Shown here: positions 3,868-25,440 of the stretch, one piece after another
Layout: every line of letters begins with the position of its first letter
Numbering within the stretch: the first letter of the stretch is position 1
Assembly (NCBI GenBank): GCA_021734685.1
Contig: JAIPIL010000003.1
Span: 1 to 35,685 of the forward strand
Length of the DNA: 35,685 bases
Source of the DNA: Minisyncoccota bacterium
GTDB lineage: Bacteria; Patescibacteriota; Minisyncoccia; Minisyncoccales; PWPS01
Direction: 5' to 3'
Translations under genes and position numbers: made by a program
Notes under the pieces: model-generated
What the model saw: the letters and a program-made list of their open reading frames with translations, nothing else
The model's database searches: none
Told to the model about the DNA's origin: nothing

Positions 3868-3907
3868 AAACCCCCCATGTCCAACCCCGGGTTGGACATG
3901 GGGGTTG
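3868..3907. terminator. long GC-rich hairpin, possible bidirectional terminator
   Basis: CCCCCATGTCCAACCC/GGGTTGGACATGGGGG, 16 bp perfect arms, T-rich on both flanks. Confidence 0.6.
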
Positions 3908-3932
3908 CAAAATTATTTTTTTTAATTATAAT
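3905..3932 (+). promoter_or_regulatory. sigma70-like promoter for the T-box/glyQS transcript
   Basis: TTGCAA (3905-3910), 16 nt spacer, TATAAT (3927-3932), a few bases before the leader RNA. Confidence 0.55.
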
Positions 3933-3942
3933 TATTTTTATC

Positions 3943-4122
3943 GGGTTTAACTGAGGGAGATTGGCGCCCCTCTTGATATCAGGAGACTCCTGTAGATCAA
4001 AGTTAAACAAATTAAGGTGGCTTAAAAGAGGTTTAACTCTCTTTAAGCAAACTAGATGGAACCGCGGGTAGAAAACTCGTTCTAGTGATTAAAAGGTTTA
4101 ATCATTGGAGCGAGTTTTTTTA
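3943..4122 (+). promoter_or_regulatory. T-box leader (glycine specificity) upstream of glyQS
   Basis: Antiterminator ACTAGA[TGGAACC]GCGGG-TAGAAAA-CTCGT-TCTAGT (4051-4086) with the conserved 7-nt TGGNACC bulge; TGGA is complementary to a UCCA-3' acceptor end (U73, as in tRNA-Gly); mutually exclusive terminator; next gene is GlyRS. Confidence 0.85.
4074..4121 (+). terminator. T-box intrinsic terminator
   Basis: AACTCGTTCTAGTGATTAAA-AGG-TTTAATCATTGGAGCGAGTT (about 20 bp with G-U pairs) followed by TTTTTT; its 5' arm overlaps the antiterminator 3' strand. Confidence 0.9.
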
Positions 4123-4142
4123 TTAATTAATAATTTAAAGAT

Positions 4143-5537
4143 ATGGAGAAAAAAACTTTAGAAGAAGTAGTATCATTTTGTAAAAGAAGAGGTTTCATTT
4201 TTCAATCATCCGACATATATGGAGGATTTGCTGCTATCTATGACTATGGTCATTACGGAACCCTTTTGAAAAATAACATCCGTGATGCTTGGTGGAAAAG
4301 CATGGTTCAAGAAAGAGATGATGTTTATGCTCTTGATAGTGCTATTTTTATGCACCCTAAAACATGGGAGGCATCTGGACACTTGGCTGGATTTGATGAT
4401 CCCCAAGTTGACTGTAAAAAATGTAAACAAAGAATGAGAGCTGACCATATTCTTGAAGAATTTGGAATAGAGGCCGATAAAGCTCCGATGGAGTTCATAA
4501 ACGAAAAGATAGATGAACTAAAAAAAGAAGGAAAAGTTAAGTGTGTGAACTGTGGATCAACTGATCTAACTGAAGCAAAAAGATTTTCTTTAATGGTAAA
4601 GTCAAACATCGGTTCCCCAGTAGATGTCCTTTCCGAAGAGAATGTTGTTTATCTTCGCCCAGAAACTTGTGGAGGAATATACTTAGAGTATAAAAATATG
4701 ATGAACTCTGTTCACCCAAAACTTCCTTTCGGGATTGCTCAAATTGGAAAAGCTTTCCGCAACGAGATCGTTGCAAGACAGTTTATCTTTAGAACCAGAG
4801 AGTTTGAACAGATGGAGATGCAGTACTTCCTTCACCCTGACCAGATGAAAGAAAAATACGACTTCTGGCACGAGCTTCGTTGGAGTTGGTATCTAGAGTA
4901 TGGAATTCCAGAAGAAAAAATGAACTGGCACAAACACGATGTGATGGCTCATTACGCAACAGAAGCCTATGACATAGAGTTCAACTTTGATTCTCTTGGT
5001 GGGTTTAAAGAGGTAGAAGGAATTCATGCTAGAGGAGATTGGGATCTCTCACAACACTCTAAACACTCTGGAGTTGATCTAAGCTACACTGATGATCAAA
5101 CAAAAGAGAAGTTTATTCCACACATTATGGAAACCTCTGTTGGATTAAACCGTCTTGTTTTAATGTTTATTGATAACGGATATACAAAAGAAAATGTTGA
5201 TGGAGAGGAAAGATTGGTGTTGAAAATAGACAAAAGATTATCTCCAATAAAGGTTGCCATCTTCCCACTTATGAAGAATAAGCCAGAGATAATGGAGCAA
5301 GCAAAAAAAATCCACGAATCTCTTAAGAGAAAGTGGATGTGTGAATTTGATACCAGCGGAAGTATCGGAAAAAGATACCGAAGACAAGATGAGATCGGAA
5401 CTCCTTACTGTGTTACTGTTGACTTTGACTCCTTGTCAGATAAGTCAGTAACTGTAAGAGATAGAGACACGATGAAACAAGAGAGAGTTAAGATAGAAGA
5501 TCTTGAAAGTTATCTTTCTGAGAAACTGTCCCTATAA
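4143..5537 (+). CDS. glyQS: glycyl-tRNA synthetase (dimeric alpha2 type)
   Basis: ORF 464 aa; IYGGFAAIYDYGHYGTLLKNNI, LRPETCGGIYLEYKN, IAQIGKAFRNEI, GVDLSYTD motifs. Confidence 0.95.
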   Translation: MEKKTLEEVVSFCKRRGFIFQSSDIYGGFAAIYDYGHYGTLLKNNIRDAWWKSMVQERDDVYALDSAIFMHPKTWEASGHLAGFDDPQVDCKKCKQRMRADHILEEFGIEADKAPMEFINEKIDELKKEGKVKCVNCGSTDLTEAKRFSLMVKSNIGSPVDVLSEENVVYLRPETCGGIYLEYKNMMNSVHPKLPFGIAQIGKAFRNEIVARQFIFRTREFEQMEMQYFLHPDQMKEKYDFWHELRWSWYLEYGIPEEKMNWHKHDVMAHYATEAYDIEFNFDSLGGFKEVEGIHARGDWDLSQHSKHSGVDLSYTDDQTKEKFIPHIMETSVGLNRLVLMFIDNGYTKENVDGEERLVLKIDKRLSPIKVAIFPLMKNKPEIMEQAKKIHESLKRKWMCEFDTSGSIGKRYRRQDEIGTPYCVTVDFDSLSDKSVTVRDRDTMKQERVKIEDLESYLSEKLSL

Positions 5538-18875: not shown

Positions 18876-20189
18876 TTAGAGTGTTGGGTTAACTACTCTT
18901 CCCATAAAAAGGATGTTTCCGCTTTTTTCTTGGATGATGAAGATGAACGGGTGGTCAGCTTTGAACTGTTTTTTTTCTTCGGGCATCGCAGATTCCATCA
19001 TCACAACTCCTGTTGCTGCTGCTGCTTCTGTTCCTTTTTCGTCAACTGTGATGTATGCGCTGTGAACAACCTTTCCAATAAAAAGAGACTTGTCACCGTT
19101 CATTCCTGAGAAGTCGGCACCGCCACTAAAAGAGCGAGTCATTCCAAGAGCTTGCAAATAATTTTTTAACTGATAATCAGATTCAAGTTCAAACTTTGGA
19201 AGATAAACGGCAACCTCTTGTTTGTATGCTTTAGTTGCAACTGTTTTTATTTTATCAACGGTAATGGTGTTTTCAACGGCAGATAAATCATTTTCCCTAG
19301 GAAGAACGACCATCATTGATACTTCCTCTCCTTTGTAAGGCATCTCTAAAACTTGGATCAGTTCATCCTCATAATATCGGTACTCTCCATCGGTCTTCTG
19401 CATCATCTCAACTTGAACTGTTTCATCACTATCTACATAAAAATCACTCTCTGTTGTATTTTCTTCATCAAACTCGTCTTCCCAGTCCCCCTTGAAGTAT
19501 ATTGCGTTAGTAATTACCAAGCGAGTTAAGTCTGAAAAAGAGTTTTCTGGAAAGAGTTCGTCAATTATATCGTTTGTTTTTTCCGCAACCCAACTGTTAA
19601 TAATCTCTCTTGCTTTCTCTGGATCTTTTCCAAAATCAATGTTTCTAGCTACTCCCCCGTAAAATCTTTCTGTTGCTTCGGTGAAAGTAGGAAGAAGGTT
19701 GTAGTCCTCTTGAACCCACAAGGCGTTTGCTGTTTTCATCTCGTAGTTATCGTTATCTGCATTAAGACGATTGTAGATACTTGCAACCGCAGGTCTGCGA
19801 ACACTATCTCCTTCCGGAAATCCAAAAACAGAAACTATCTCTTCTGCAGTTTCTTCTCTTGCTCCTTCGTAAACTATTGCAAGTGCGGTAGAGATGCTGT
19901 ATGGGGATATAAAGACATTTTCTTTTTCTTCTTTAATTATTTCTTTATAGATCTTTAAAGCAAACTCGTTATTTGCATCTTCTACCGCTTTAACTCCTTC
20001 TGGAGTTACTCCTTCGTCATCGGCAGTAAAAGTAGTTTCACTTTCTCCTCCTCCTAAAGAAAAGATATAAGAAAGAAATGTTTTGTTTTTTATCTCTTCT
20101 TCTGTGTATCCAGCAATGAGGATAAGCGAGACTCCGATGAAGAGAATAAAAAGAGACAAGATTGATAATAATAAAAACTTTTTAACCAT
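18876..20189 (-). CDS. serpin-family serine protease inhibitor with N-terminal membrane anchor
   Basis: ORF 437 aa; NVFISPYSISTALAIVYEGAREETAEEI, VITNAIYFKGDWEDEFD, hinge EKGTEAAAATGVV, HPFIFIIQEKSGNILFMGRVVNP; N-terminal hydrophobic helix. Confidence 0.95.
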   Translation of the reverse strand: MVKKFLLLSILSLFILFIGVSLILIAGYTEEEIKNKTFLSYIFSLGGGESETTFTADDEGVTPEGVKAVEDANNEFALKIYKEIIKEEKENVFISPYSISTALAIVYEGAREETAEEIVSVFGFPEGDSVRRPAVASIYNRLNADNDNYEMKTANALWVQEDYNLLPTFTEATERFYGGVARNIDFGKDPEKAREIINSWVAEKTNDIIDELFPENSFSDLTRLVITNAIYFKGDWEDEFDEENTTESDFYVDSDETVQVEMMQKTDGEYRYYEDELIQVLEMPYKGEEVSMMVVLPRENDLSAVENTITVDKIKTVATKAYKQEVAVYLPKFELESDYQLKNYLQALGMTRSFSGGADFSGMNGDKSLFIGKVVHSAYITVDEKGTEAAAATGVVMMESAMPEEKKQFKADHPFIFIIQEKSGNILFMGRVVNPTL

Positions 20190-20889: not shown

Positions 20890-23800
20890 ATGTCCTTCAC
20901 TCACCTACATGTTCATACCGAATACAGTTTACTTGATGGTCTTACAAAGCTAGACGATCTTTTAGATTATGTTAAGGAAAACGGAATGGATGCCGTCGCA
21001 ATCACTGATCACGGTGTTCTTTACGGTGCAATAGAGTTTTACAAGAAAGCAAAAAAAGCTGGCGTTAAGCCAATTATCGGGTGCGAAGTGTATGTCGCCT
21101 TTGATGGAATGCACAACAAAAGGCCAAACATTGACAACAAATCTAATCACCTTGTTCTTCTAGCAAAAAATATAAAGGGCTATCAAAACTTGGTGCGATT
21201 AGTGAGCAAAGCCCATCTTGAAGGATTTTATTACAAACCAAGAATAGATAATCAACTTTTAGAAGAACACACTGAGGGATTAATCTGCCTCTCTGCTTGT
21301 CTTAAAGGAAAAATCCCTCAACTCGTCCTTTCTGGGAAGTATGATGAGGCAAAAAAACTTGCTCTTCACTATAAAAATATATTTGAAAAAGATAGCTTCT
21401 ATCTTGAAATCCAAAATCATCCAAACACTCCTGATCAAGAAAAAGCAAACAAAGAACTGGTAAGAATCTCAAAAGAAACCGGAATTCCTCTTGTTGCAAC
21501 TTGCGACTCACACTATCTAAGACCAGAAGATGCGGAAACACAAGATATATTAATGTCTATCGGGACTGGCTCTGATATAAATAATCCTGACCGAATGTCA
21601 ATCATTCATGATGATTTTTCAATGCCTGCTCCTGAAAAAATGAAAGAGTTGTTTAAAAATGTTCCTGAAGCAGTTGAAAATACAGAAAAAATTAAAGATC
21701 TTTGCAATCTAGAAATTGAGTTAGGGAAAAGAATACTCCCCTACTTTCCGCTTGAAGAAGGAAAAACTGCAAACGATATGCTTCAAGAGTTGTGTGAAAA
21801 AGGAATTCCGGAAAAGTATCGCCCCGAACAAGAAGAAGAGGTTAAAAAAAGATTAAAAGAAGAGATGGATGTCATTGTTGGCGCTGACCTCTCTTCTTAT
21901 TTTCTAGTTGTCCAAGATTTTACTGTCTGGTCAAAAAAGAACAACATCGTAGTTGGTCCCGGAAGAGGTTCTGCTGGTGGATCAATTGTTGCTTATCTTA
22001 TCGGAATAACAAACATTGATCCTCTCCATTACGGATTAATCTTTGAGAGATTTTTAAATCCCGGAAGAGCAAAGGTTTCTCTTCCTGATATTGATCTTGA
22101 TTTTGCTGATAAAAGAAGAGATGAGGTTATCTCATATATTGGAGAAAGATATGGAAAAGACCGTGTAGCACAGATTATAACTTTTGGAACGATGGCTGCT
22201 AAGGCTGCAATTCGTGATGTTGGAAGAACGCTTGGTTATCCTTATGCCTACTGTGACAAGGTTGCAAAGATGATTCCCCTTGGAGCAAATCTAAAAGAAA
22301 CAAAGGAGAAAATTGCTGACTTTAGACAGCTATATGACACTGATGAGAAGGCTCGCCGAATGATAGATCAAGCTGAAAAGTTAGAGGGAGTTGTCCGCCA
22401 TGCATCAACACATGCCTGTGGACTGGTTATCTCCAATAATCCCTTAACAGACATCGCTCCTCTTCAACACCCAACCAACAACGGAGAAGGAGTTCTTACT
22501 CAGTATGCGATGGAGTCCGTTGAAGATCTAGGACTTTTAAAGATGGATCTGTTGGGCTTAAAAAACCTAACCATTCTTGAAAACACCCTGAAAAGAATAT
22601 ACGCAATCAGTAAAAAAGATATTGATTTAGAAAAAATCCCCCTTGACGATAAAGAAGCCTTCAAAATCCTAAAACAAGGAAACACAGTAGGTGTGTTTCA
22701 ACTGGAGTGTTTGTCTGGAGACACTATTATCTCCAATACAACAATTGAAAAACTATACAAGAGAAAAGACAAAAAAAGAATCACTTCTTTATATCTAGAT
22801 GAAGGAAAGATCCATCTTAACGAGATATTAGATGTTGTAAGTAGCGGAAAAAGAAAAGTTTACACTTTGATCACAGAAAATAACCGATATATAAAAGCCA
22901 CAAAAGGTCATCGCTTCCTAACTAAAGACGGCTGGAAAGAGTTAAAAGATATAAGGGTTGGAGAAACTGTTCTAATGAGAGAAAAAGCAAAACACCTTGT
23001 TTACAGAAGATGTGAATTGTGTAAAAAGCAAATTTACGGAAATCCAAGAAAGGAGGCAAAATTTTGTTACCGATGTTCAGCGCTTACTTATAAAAATCCT
23101 AGTAAACCAATCTCAAGAGAAAAAATAAAAAAAGCAAGAGTAGAATTTTACGCAAACGGTGGAAAACCGTGGAATACAGGGTTAACAAAAGAAAATAGTG
23201 ATATATGGAGGGAGACATCAAAAAAAATTGCCACTGCTCTTACTGGGAAAACACTTGAAGATCGTTACGGAAAGGAAAAAGCAGACAAGATAAAGAAAAG
23301 AATGTCAGAAAGATTTAGTGGGTCAAAAAATCCGATGTTTGGAAAAACCCCTCCTCATGGAAAAAGAGGGTTCCGTAAAGATTTAGGTCACTTTGTTCGT
23401 TCTTCGTGGGAAGCTGATTTTGCAAGAATATTGAAGCTATACAATTTAGATTATCAGTATGAACCAAAAACATTTCCTTTGACAAGAGAGAATGGAGAGA
23501 TTATCAACTACACCCCTGATTTTTATGTTCCATCTAAAAACACTTTTTATGAAATAAAGGGATTTTTACGACACCCCGATAAAGAAAAAATTGAGTTATT
23601 TGAAAAACAATACCCACAATATAACTTTGTTTTAGTCAACAATACTCTTTTTGCCGAACTTGCTTTAAAATATAAAACTCTAATTAATTGGGAGTGTCCA
23701 CAAATTCCTAAAAAAGGATTTAGTTTTGTTAAAATTAAAGAAATTAAATACTCTGGAGTAGAAGAAACCTATGATATTAAGATGAAATCCCCTGCGAACA

Positions 23801-25179
23801 ACTTCCAAGCAAGTAGTTTTATCGTTCATAATAGCGGAGGTATGCAACGCTACTTAAAGCAGTTGAAGCCTTCAAATATTGAAGAGATTATTGCTATGAT
23901 CTCTCTTTATCGTCCTGGTCCGATGAAGTTTCTTCCTGACTACATTGCAAGAAAAAACAAAAAGAAAGAGATTGTTTACCTCCACCCTTCTTTGGAGCCG
24001 ATTCTGAAGCCAACTTACGGAGTGCTTGTTTTCCAAGAACAAGTAATGCAGATCGCAACCGACTTGGCTGGGTTTAGTAAAGAAGAAGCTGATACCTTAA
24101 GAAAAGCGATCGGTAAAAAGATAAAAGAACTGATGGATAAGAAGAAAGGACAGTTTATAGAAGGAATGGGGCAAAACAAAATAAATGAAAAAATTGCAAG
24201 AGAGATATGGGAGTGGATAGAACCGTTTGCGCAGTACTCTTTCAACAAAAGTCACGCAGCAGCTTACGCTCAGATCGCTTATCAAACCGCGTATCTGAAG
24301 GCTCACTACCCTCGTGAATTTATGTCTGCTCTTTTAACTGCGGATCAAGGAGATACTGAAAGAGTTGGTTTTCTTATTAACGGCTGTAAAAAAATGAAGA
24401 TAGAAGTTCTTCCTCCTGATATCAACGAAAGTTTTATGGGGTTCAGTGTTGTTCCTGATAAAAACGAAATCCGTTTCGGATTATCAGCAATTAAAAATGT
24501 TGGAGACAAGGTAGTTGAAGTTATCGTAAAAGAAAGAAAAGAAAACGGAGAATTTAAATCACTTGATGATTTCCTCTCCCGAATCCAACCACCAACTCTA
24601 AACAAAAAGTCACTGGAAAGTTTAGTGAAGTCAGGCTCTTTTGATCGTTTCAAACCACGAGAAGACCTTATCTATAACCTTGAACGATTATTAGAATACA
24701 GCAGAGAAAAGGGAAAGTGTAAAGATAATGGACAGTCAGGATTATTTGATACGGATCTTACAGAGTGTGAGCTTAGTTTAGAGAAAGCCCCTGAAGTTAA
24801 CCATCAAGAAAAACTAAAGTGGGAGAAAGAGCTACTTGGTCTTTTTGTTACTGGACATCCGTTAGAATATCTGAAAGAAAAAACAAGAAACGGCGGAATT
24901 ACAATTAAAGAAGCAAAAAAACAGATAACCGACACTCGAGTAAGAGTTGGAGTTGTTATCTCGGCAATTAAAAAAATAACCACAAAAAAAGGTGATCCGA
25001 TGCTCTTTATTACTGTTGAAGATCTTGAAGAGACGATGGAAGTGATCGTTTTTCCAAAAACCCTTGAAAGCAACGGAACAATCTTTGAAGAAGGAAGATC
25101 AGTCTTCATATCAGGAAAGATAAACAACCGCGACGAAGTACCAAAAATAATATGCGAAACCGCAATGCCGATAGAATAA
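20890..25179 (+). CDS. dnaE: DNA polymerase III alpha subunit interrupted by an intein
   Basis: ORF 1429 aa; HLHVHTEYSLLDG PHP domain, GPGRGSAGGSIVAYL, LPDIDLDFADKRRDEV, FNKSHAAAYA; extein ~1054 aa. Confidence 0.97.
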   Translation: MSFTHLHVHTEYSLLDGLTKLDDLLDYVKENGMDAVAITDHGVLYGAIEFYKKAKKAGVKPIIGCEVYVAFDGMHNKRPNIDNKSNHLVLLAKNIKGYQNLVRLVSKAHLEGFYYKPRIDNQLLEEHTEGLICLSACLKGKIPQLVLSGKYDEAKKLALHYKNIFEKDSFYLEIQNHPNTPDQEKANKELVRISKETGIPLVATCDSHYLRPEDAETQDILMSIGTGSDINNPDRMSIIHDDFSMPAPEKMKELFKNVPEAVENTEKIKDLCNLEIELGKRILPYFPLEEGKTANDMLQELCEKGIPEKYRPEQEEEVKKRLKEEMDVIVGADLSSYFLVVQDFTVWSKKNNIVVGPGRGSAGGSIVAYLIGITNIDPLHYGLIFERFLNPGRAKVSLPDIDLDFADKRRDEVISYIGERYGKDRVAQIITFGTMAAKAAIRDVGRTLGYPYAYCDKVAKMIPLGANLKETKEKIADFRQLYDTDEKARRMIDQAEKLEGVVRHASTHACGLVISNNPLTDIAPLQHPTNNGEGVLTQYAMESVEDLGLLKMDLLGLKNLTILENTLKRIYAISKKDIDLEKIPLDDKEAFKILKQGNTVGVFQLECLSGDTIISNTTIEKLYKRKDKKRITSLYLDEGKIHLNEILDVVSSGKRKVYTLITENNRYIKATKGHRFLTKDGWKELKDIRVGETVLMREKAKHLVYRRCELCKKQIYGNPRKEAKFCYRCSALTYKNPSKPISREKIKKARVEFYANGGKPWNTGLTKENSDIWRETSKKIATALTGKTLEDRYGKEKADKIKKRMSERFSGSKNPMFGKTPPHGKRGFRKDLGHFVRSSWEADFARILKLYNLDYQYEPKTFPLTRENGEIINYTPDFYVPSKNTFYEIKGFLRHPDKEKIELFEKQYPQYNFVLVNNTLFAELALKYKTLINWECPQIPKKGFSFVKIKEIKYSGVEETYDIKMKSPANNFQASSFIVHNSGGMQRYLKQLKPSNIEEIIAMISLYRPGPMKFLPDYIARKNKKKEIVYLHPSLEPILKPTYGVLVFQEQVMQIATDLAGFSKEEADTLRKAIGKKIKELMDKKKGQFIEGMGQNKINEKIAREIWEWIEPFAQYSFNKSHAAAYAQIAYQTAYLKAHYPREFMSALLTADQGDTERVGFLINGCKKMKIEVLPPDINESFMGFSVVPDKNEIRFGLSAIKNVGDKVVEVIVKERKENGEFKSLDDFLSRIQPPTLNKKSLESLVKSGSFDRFKPREDLIYNLERLLEYSREKGKCKDNGQSGLFDTDLTECELSLEKAPEVNHQEKLKWEKELLGLFVTGHPLEYLKEKTRNGGITIKEAKKQITDTRVRVGVVISAIKKITTKKGDPMLFITVEDLEETMEVIVFPKTLESNGTIFEEGRSVFISGKINNRDEVPKIICETAMPIE
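22708..23832 (+). mobile_element. intein (375 aa) in DnaE at VFQLE/SGGM with embedded PD-(D/E)xK-like homing nuclease candidate
   Basis: N-terminal CLSGDTII, block B-like TKGHRFLTKDGW, C-terminal YDIKMKSPANNFQASSFIVHN followed by Ser+1; removal restores VFQLESGGMQRYLK; in frame on both sides. Confidence 0.93.
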
Positions 25180-25186
25180 ATAATAT

Positions 25187-25440
25187 AAAATTTTCAATTT
25201 TCAATTTGGCAATTTTCAAAACAATCATCTGTCATTCTGAACGAAGCGTAGCGTAGTGAAGAATCCCACTGTTTTTGCAGTAACTTGAGATTCTTCGGCT
25301 ACCGCCTCAGAATGACGGTGGGATGTCATTCCCACCCCTCCCTTGTCATTCCCGCGAAGGCGGGAATCCAGTTTTGGATTTTGAATTTTGGTTATTGGTG
25401 CTTATTTAGGATTTGGTGCTTAGGATTTGGTGCTTTTCCA
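25187..25440. repeat. composite palindromic intergenic repeat element
   Basis: GTCATTCTGA...GAAGAATC (25231-25265) inverted with GATTCTTC...TCAGAATGAC (25289-25316); second hairpin ATTCCCGC-GAAG-GCGGGAAT (25348-25367); flanking TTTTCAATTTTCAA and tandem TTAGGATTTGGTGCTT. Confidence 0.8.

Follow-up and report, generated by a model that had tools for sequence, protein, structure and literature searches.

The described T-box classes and the leader of glyS

T-boxes follow an established logic, according to which an uncharged tRNA that bridges the specifier and the bulge stabilises the antiterminator (PMC7583486, PMC7778990). Four classes of T-boxes have been listed. In the published scheme, class III combines a specifier in an apical loop with a Stem II that is required, and class II has a long Stem I and no Stem II; the class III ileS T-boxes are a known case of an apical-loop specifier on a short Stem I (PMC10482949). 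For glycine T-boxes without Stem II, the GC-rich codon-anticodon duplex of glycine has been argued to be the explanation, and it has been asked if a T-box can function at all when the K-turn is missing (PMC7583486).

Here, we present the analysis of a stretch of 35,685 nucleotides (the window), in which a first-pass annotation had noticed a glycine T-box leader with an apparently compact decoding domain. This observation was confirmed as a whole, and all elements were located where they had been placed. The RNA 5' of glyS looks like a real tRNA-sensing switch, i.e. a T-box, whose tRNA-reading half is reduced to a single short stem plus a hairpin loop that carries the codon. The T-box is found at 3945-4122 on the plus strand, immediately 5' of glyS (4143-5537), and comprises Stem III, a TGGAACC antiterminator, and an overlapping terminator with a U-run. 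The features are as follows:

3905-3932, plus strand: sigma-70-like promoter TTGCAA-16-TATAAT, start site expected at about 3939-3940 (10/12 consensus matches)
3945-3952, plus strand: 5' arm of the closing helix P1, GUUUAACU (MFE; compensatory change across relatives)
3953-3972, plus strand: specifier hairpin GAGGG-AGAUUGGCGC-CCCUC (MFE; covariation in 122/128 paired cells, permutation maximum 102)
3963-3965, plus strand: predicted specifier codon GGC, reading tRNA-Gly(GCC) (Gly codon in 32/32 leaders; tRNA-Gly GCC and UCC in the genome)
3973-4000, plus strand: second hairpin UUGAU..AUCAA, a lineage-private linker insertion (relatives carry unrelated hairpins or a single-stranded linker there)
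4001-4008, plus strand: 3' arm of P1, AGUUAAAC (MFE; relatives compared)
4009-4019, plus strand: linker AAAUUAAGGUG, purine-rich flank of Stem III (RAGGYGG-type motif kept in the family)
4020-4048, plus strand: Stem III (MFE; position conserved)
4051-4086, plus strand: antiterminator ACTAGA-TGGAACC-GCGGG...CTCGT-TCTAGT (MFE; nearly invariant across relatives; RF00230 match)
about 4074-4122, plus strand: competing intrinsic terminator and T-run, using the 3' strand of the antiterminator (MFE fold; terminator-like site; overlap in nearly all candidate-phyla relatives)
4143-5537, plus strand: glyS, dimeric-type glycyl-tRNA synthetase of 464 aa, the predicted regulated gene (NF003211, 605 bits; TIGR00389, 484 bits)

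Anatomy of the element and its genomic context

P1 consists of 8 bp (3945-3952/4001-4008) and encloses the GGC-bearing hairpin, whose arms GAGGG (3953-3957) and CCCTC (3968-3972) frame the 10 nt terminal loop AGATTGGCGC. The decoding domain has a length of about 64 nt including the private insert of 28 nt, and the whole leader of about 180 nt. As the gap between P1 and Stem III is only about 12 nt, a Stem II is absent. The element also lacks the GA/GA K-turn motif and a tRNA-elbow module, yet a transcription terminator is present. In the antiterminator, A1 is formed by 4051-4056/4081-4086 and A2 by 4064-4068/4076-4080; the T-box bulge UGGAACC occupies 4057-4063. In alignments read by eye, the RRRNG-Stem III-AA motif of T-boxes (PMC7583486, PMC7778990) is present as AAGGUGG-Stem III-CAA.

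With the 3' arm of the terminator left out, the RNAfold MFE structure of 3940-4095 contained P1, both hairpins, Stem III, and the antiterminator, and reproduced exactly the 8-bp closing helix around two hairpins that had been proposed at the outset. In the fold of 3940-4120, the terminator takes the place of the antiterminator (z = -6.3). Both of the postulated alternatives, the antiterminator (4051-4086) and a terminator with a U-run (about 4074-4116 plus T-run), were obtained as MFE structures, and the predicted folds are mutually exclusive. For shuffles of the region, 0.2 terminator-like sites are expected; in the actual sequence, such a site coincides in part with the 3' strand of the antiterminator.

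The comparison with RF00230 envisaged in the first-pass annotation gave a match over 3942-4087 with an E-value of 8e-7 (321-base search), though its 36.6 bits are below the gathering cut-off of 93 bits. The alignment extends from end to end of the model, which would be expected of an ordinary class II (glyQS-type) T-box whose long Stem I had been missed by folding; the glycine specificity, the missing Stem II, and the transcription terminator also agree with this explanation. However, the full model is reached only via large deletions, which remove most of its Stem I part, whereas full-length 187-nt alignments do appear for tyrS of the same order (60.5 bits) and for a Clostridiaceae glyS (82.4 bits). 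The existence of leaders with a longer Stem I in the same order indicates that the method does not force compactness. A second argument is the location of the promoter-like site. Its match strength alone is not significant, as shuffles also yield about 1.3 per region, but its end at 3932 lies 12 nt before P1, and in nearly all leaders a -10-like box, either TATAAT or a variant with one to two mismatches, is found at most 15 nt from P1; this common spacing makes a long Stem I before P1 unlikely. Since the covariation described below also favours the compact form, we consider a class II T-box extremely improbable, and the original statement that the usual long Stem I is replaced by a compact decoding domain holds. 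Just 5' of the promoter, the window contains a very strong 15-bp hairpin (3872-3904), which has a terminator-like score on the minus strand and is followed by a T-rich run on the plus strand.

The downstream gene had been taken for glyQS. It does code for a GlyRS, but for a single chain of the dimeric type, and is glyS. Its neighbours are on the opposite strand; therefore, glyS is the only gene served by the leader. The host genome comprises 456,561 bases in 30 contigs and is 86% complete. A CPR-type host had been suspected, in agreement with the closest named GlyRS relative, which is from Candidatus Nealsonbacteria (PUMQ01000021.1, 78% identity). The tRNA-Gly anticodons of the genome are GCC and UCC, and both tRNAs possess U73, as anticipated from the UGGA motif. 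This set fits the UGGA bulge and the specifiers, which are GGC here and GGA in one relative from the genus; specifier, gene, and tRNA match.

A gapped leader pattern scan of the genome contigs gave no match; a second and a third RF00230 match in the same genome have no TGGNACC bulge and were discarded as chance hits. For thrS of the window (25511), no T-box was found, and there is no TGGNACC nearby. The region before thrS (25230-25370) contains short repeats of type GTCATTCTGAACGAAG...GAAGAATC, which also occur in L039 and in contig C28 of the genome. Two further genes of the window deserve mention. DnaE (DNA polymerase III alpha, 20890-25179) is interrupted at about residues 616-981 by an intein (Pfam Intein_splicing), which may include an endonuclease segment. 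The other gene, at 18876-20189 on the minus strand, encodes a serpin (Pfam, 425 bits) whose N-terminus includes a hydrophobic stretch; the Patescibacteria genome harbouring it is a reduced one.

Compact leaders in related genomes

BLASTN identified clear leader homologues in nine other genomes, each directly 5' of GlyRS; the leader precedes glyS in 7/8 genomes of the genus and is also located before glyS in more distant relatives. With a covariance model (R1), further leaders were detected in the order, the class, and the phylum, and a second one (R2), built from K-turn leaders, gave a T-box-like match in 41/389 phylum genomes. The totals of both models include other specificities (thrS, tyrS, serS, aspS, argG, argH, ileS), and all leaders scored here are below the Rfam cut-off of RF00230. 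At the glyS loci of G005, which belongs to the same genus, and of other checked members of family and order, R1 gave no match; the presence of the compact leader at glyS is patchy.

MAFFT alone failed to align P1. For this reason, the seed alignments of R1 and R2, and only these, were made with linkers and Stem III loops trimmed; pairs were counted in untrimmed genomic sequence. When fixed 140-nt stretches were folded by MFE, many relatives came out misfolded, and we therefore derived the structures of relatives from comparison. We parsed 32 glyS-linked leaders by hand and compared them with the genomic letters. Thirty are from Patescibacteria, among them Ca. Nealsonbacteria (L013, L110 leader identical) and Ca. 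Magasanikbacteria (L113); one each is from a Tenericutes MAG (L183) and a Clostridia MAG (L186), whose placement may be due to binning errors. On the reverse strand of L190, two compact glycine T-boxes are arranged in tandem (bulges at 1584 and 1737), followed by an ORF of 134 aa with no Pfam match and then by glyS.

Across the 32 leaders, the closing helix and the specifier hairpin covary (permutation p<=5e-5; as the leaders are related by descent, the permutation figures are not strict probabilities). The four innermost pairs of the hairpin are standard in 122 of the 128 cells, and permuting the 3' arms 20,000 times gave a mean of 85.4 and the maximum of 102. For the innermost four pairs of P1, where up to six pair types occur at one position, the value is 119/122 versus a permutation maximum of 81, with arms chosen by eye. 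On account of this choice, an arm-blind test was added, which compares the best helix between fixed flanks for a leader's own flanks and those of other leaders. It gave 168 versus a maximum of 167 in 20,000 permutations for 11 order-level leaders, and a weaker signal (p = 0.015) for 14 more distant ones. The proposed examination of covariation among glyS leaders supports the compact form, both for P1 and for the specifier hairpin.

The triplet GGC at 3963-3965 had been singled out as the specifier, and its counterpart is a Gly codon in all parsed leaders (26 GGC, 6 GGA). When the search was done blindly under looser criteria, 22/26 gly leaders had a hairpin loop with a Gly codon, compared to 10.0 expected in shuffles (maximum 14). 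The length of the specifier loop varies between 6 and 10 nt in the family. These findings bear on the possibility that the element is a decayed T-box, which kept its discriminator and lost the sensing of tRNA-Gly. Decay would account for the loss of K-turn, elbow module, and Stem II, and is compatible with a reduced genome and the patchy presence. However, the pairing of P1 and hairpin is preserved through many base changes, and the specifier switches between Gly codons only, which renders decay very unlikely.

The two 5' hairpins differ in their conservation: the specifier hairpin is conserved and covaries, whereas the second one turned out to be lineage-private. On the 3' side of P1, the genus has a variable linker, or, in the window, the private hairpin. 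One might regard the latter (3973-4000) as the unrecognised Stem II of a class III (ileS-like) T-box, all the more since the specifier is in an apical loop, about one third of the family has a K-turn P1 as in class III, and some members possess an insert hairpin beside the specifier hairpin. We rejected the idea that the second hairpin takes the place of Stem II: neither its sequence nor its presence is conserved, the site is a single strand of 6-9 nt in several relatives, and no S-turn motif was seen by eye. Besides the short gap between P1 and Stem III in the window, the spacing from P1 to the bulge, mostly 32-58 nt in the parsed leaders, provides space for Stem III only; judged by this spacing, a Stem II with S-turn is absent from them. 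A class III assignment is, in our opinion, quite improbable. By motif, the GA/GA K-turn is present in 11/32 family leaders, e.g. in L098 (UCAGC-GAUGA-U-GGGG-GUUUGGCU-CCCC-GGA-GUUGA), and absent in the genus of the window.

Leaders of other specificities were seen as well. The layout of thrS leaders in Patescibacteria is similar to that of the compact glyS leaders. In the candidate-phyla thrS leaders L052, L055, L057, L064, L065, L100, L107, L191, and L198, an ACC or ACG specifier is located in the terminal loop of a hairpin; the loops are mostly 7 nt long (CCACCAA/CUACCAA/UCACCAA) and anticodon-loop-like, and the stems vary in sequence. L224 and L226, 5' of an isoleucyl-tRNA-synthetase-like gene, contain a K-turn, a hexaloop UUAUCA/UCAUCA with the Ile codon AUC, and then an AGUAGAA stretch. 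Read by eye, and with the gene named from its first residues only, they resemble class III T-boxes that possess a Stem II; this class has been described from Actinobacteria. Further T-box-like leaders of Patescibacteria are L193 (gene resembling Trp/Glu dehydrogenases), L195 (argG), and L196 (argH).

Proposed mechanism and comparison with known T-boxes

The element is very probably a T-box that is specific for glycine, attenuates transcription, and has a minimal decoding domain; by its means, uncharged tRNA-Gly would turn glyS on. Transcription would start almost at P1, and P1 together with the short hairpin would display the codon GGC in the terminal loop. The anticodon of uncharged tRNA-Gly(GCC) would pair with GGC and its U73-CCA end with the UGGA bulge; the bound tRNA would hold the antiterminator, which blocks the terminator at 4074-4122, and glyS would be transcribed. 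A charged tRNA would be unable to pair at the bulge and the terminator would form. In this model, tRNA binding, its dependence on charging, and tRNA-dependent antitermination are inferred. Neither the elbow-binding tip of Stem I nor Stem II would be needed, nor the K-turn in this genus, probably because the codon loop is pre-formed and its pairing with the GC-rich Gly anticodon is strong enough; the terminal loop may pre-stack the codon for loop-loop pairing.

Several points count against this model. In translational T-boxes, a truncated Stem I is reported to show hardly any tRNA binding if Stem II is missing, and for transcriptional ones the elbow contact is reported to be a general requirement (PMC7583486). 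The K-turn, held to be near-universal, is missing here; the presence of the leader is patchy, and the gathering cut-off of RF00230 is not reached. As all three parts are missing in the genus of the window, the published requirements become directly testable with a natural leader of about 180 nt. The findings also indicate that T-boxes are spread through Patescibacteria under Rfam's cut-off, and the element is a candidate for a small natural expression control in a group for which such tools are wanted (PMC11665869). Whether Patescibacteria possess a fifth T-box class seems to us an evenly balanced matter; its anticodon-arm-like hairpin with the codon in a 6-10 nt loop would rely solely on loop-loop pairing to catch the tRNA, needing neither elbow contact nor Stem II nor (in this genus) a K-turn, and would be the smallest known T-box decoder.

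Our literature search for T-boxes in candidate phyla, whose coverage excluded most subscription papers, found no paper. As the TBDB paper mentions T-boxes with a predicted truncated Stem I (PMC7778990), related compact cases may sit unremarked in databases. The first-pass annotation had held that a minimised architecture would be new. This does not apply to the apical specifier on a short Stem I, known from class III ileS (PMC10482949); it does apply to its occurrence without Stem II on a terminator-bearing glycine T-box, here also without a K-turn.

With class II, represented by B. subtilis glyQS (PMC10482949), the element shares the glycine specifier, the lack of Stem II, the linker to Stem III, and the logic of discriminator and terminator. 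In contrast to the long Stem I of that class, with its elbow-binding IDTM, internal-loop specifier, and normally a K-turn, the decoding domain is short, has its specifier in the terminal loop, and lacks the IDTM and, in the genus, the K-turn. The element differs from the glycine T-boxes without Stem II considered in PMC7583486 in that the elbow contact is missing, too. With class III, represented by ileS of Nocardia farcinica and M. tuberculosis (PMC10482949, PMC10651847), it shares the short Stem I without IDTM and the apical-loop specifier, and about one third of the wider family shares the K-turn. However, class III requires a Stem II with S-turn and pseudoknot, is mostly translational, and its described examples are ileS with loops of 5-6 nt, whereas the family has no Stem II, a transcription terminator, Gly specificity, and loops of 6-10 nt (10 in the window). 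RF00230 has the discriminator (Stem III, UGGN bulge, A1/A2) and the overall order in common with the element and differs in the Stem I part, most of which is deleted in the low-scoring alignment.

Taken together, discriminator, specifier, and terminator identify the element as a putative T-box, and its novelty is due to the decoding domain. This predicted combination of features is outside the four described classes; it recurs in relatives, and related forms occur in other candidate-phyla bacteria. The element combines the short Stem I and apical specifier of class III with the absence of Stem II known from class II, and falls under neither definition.
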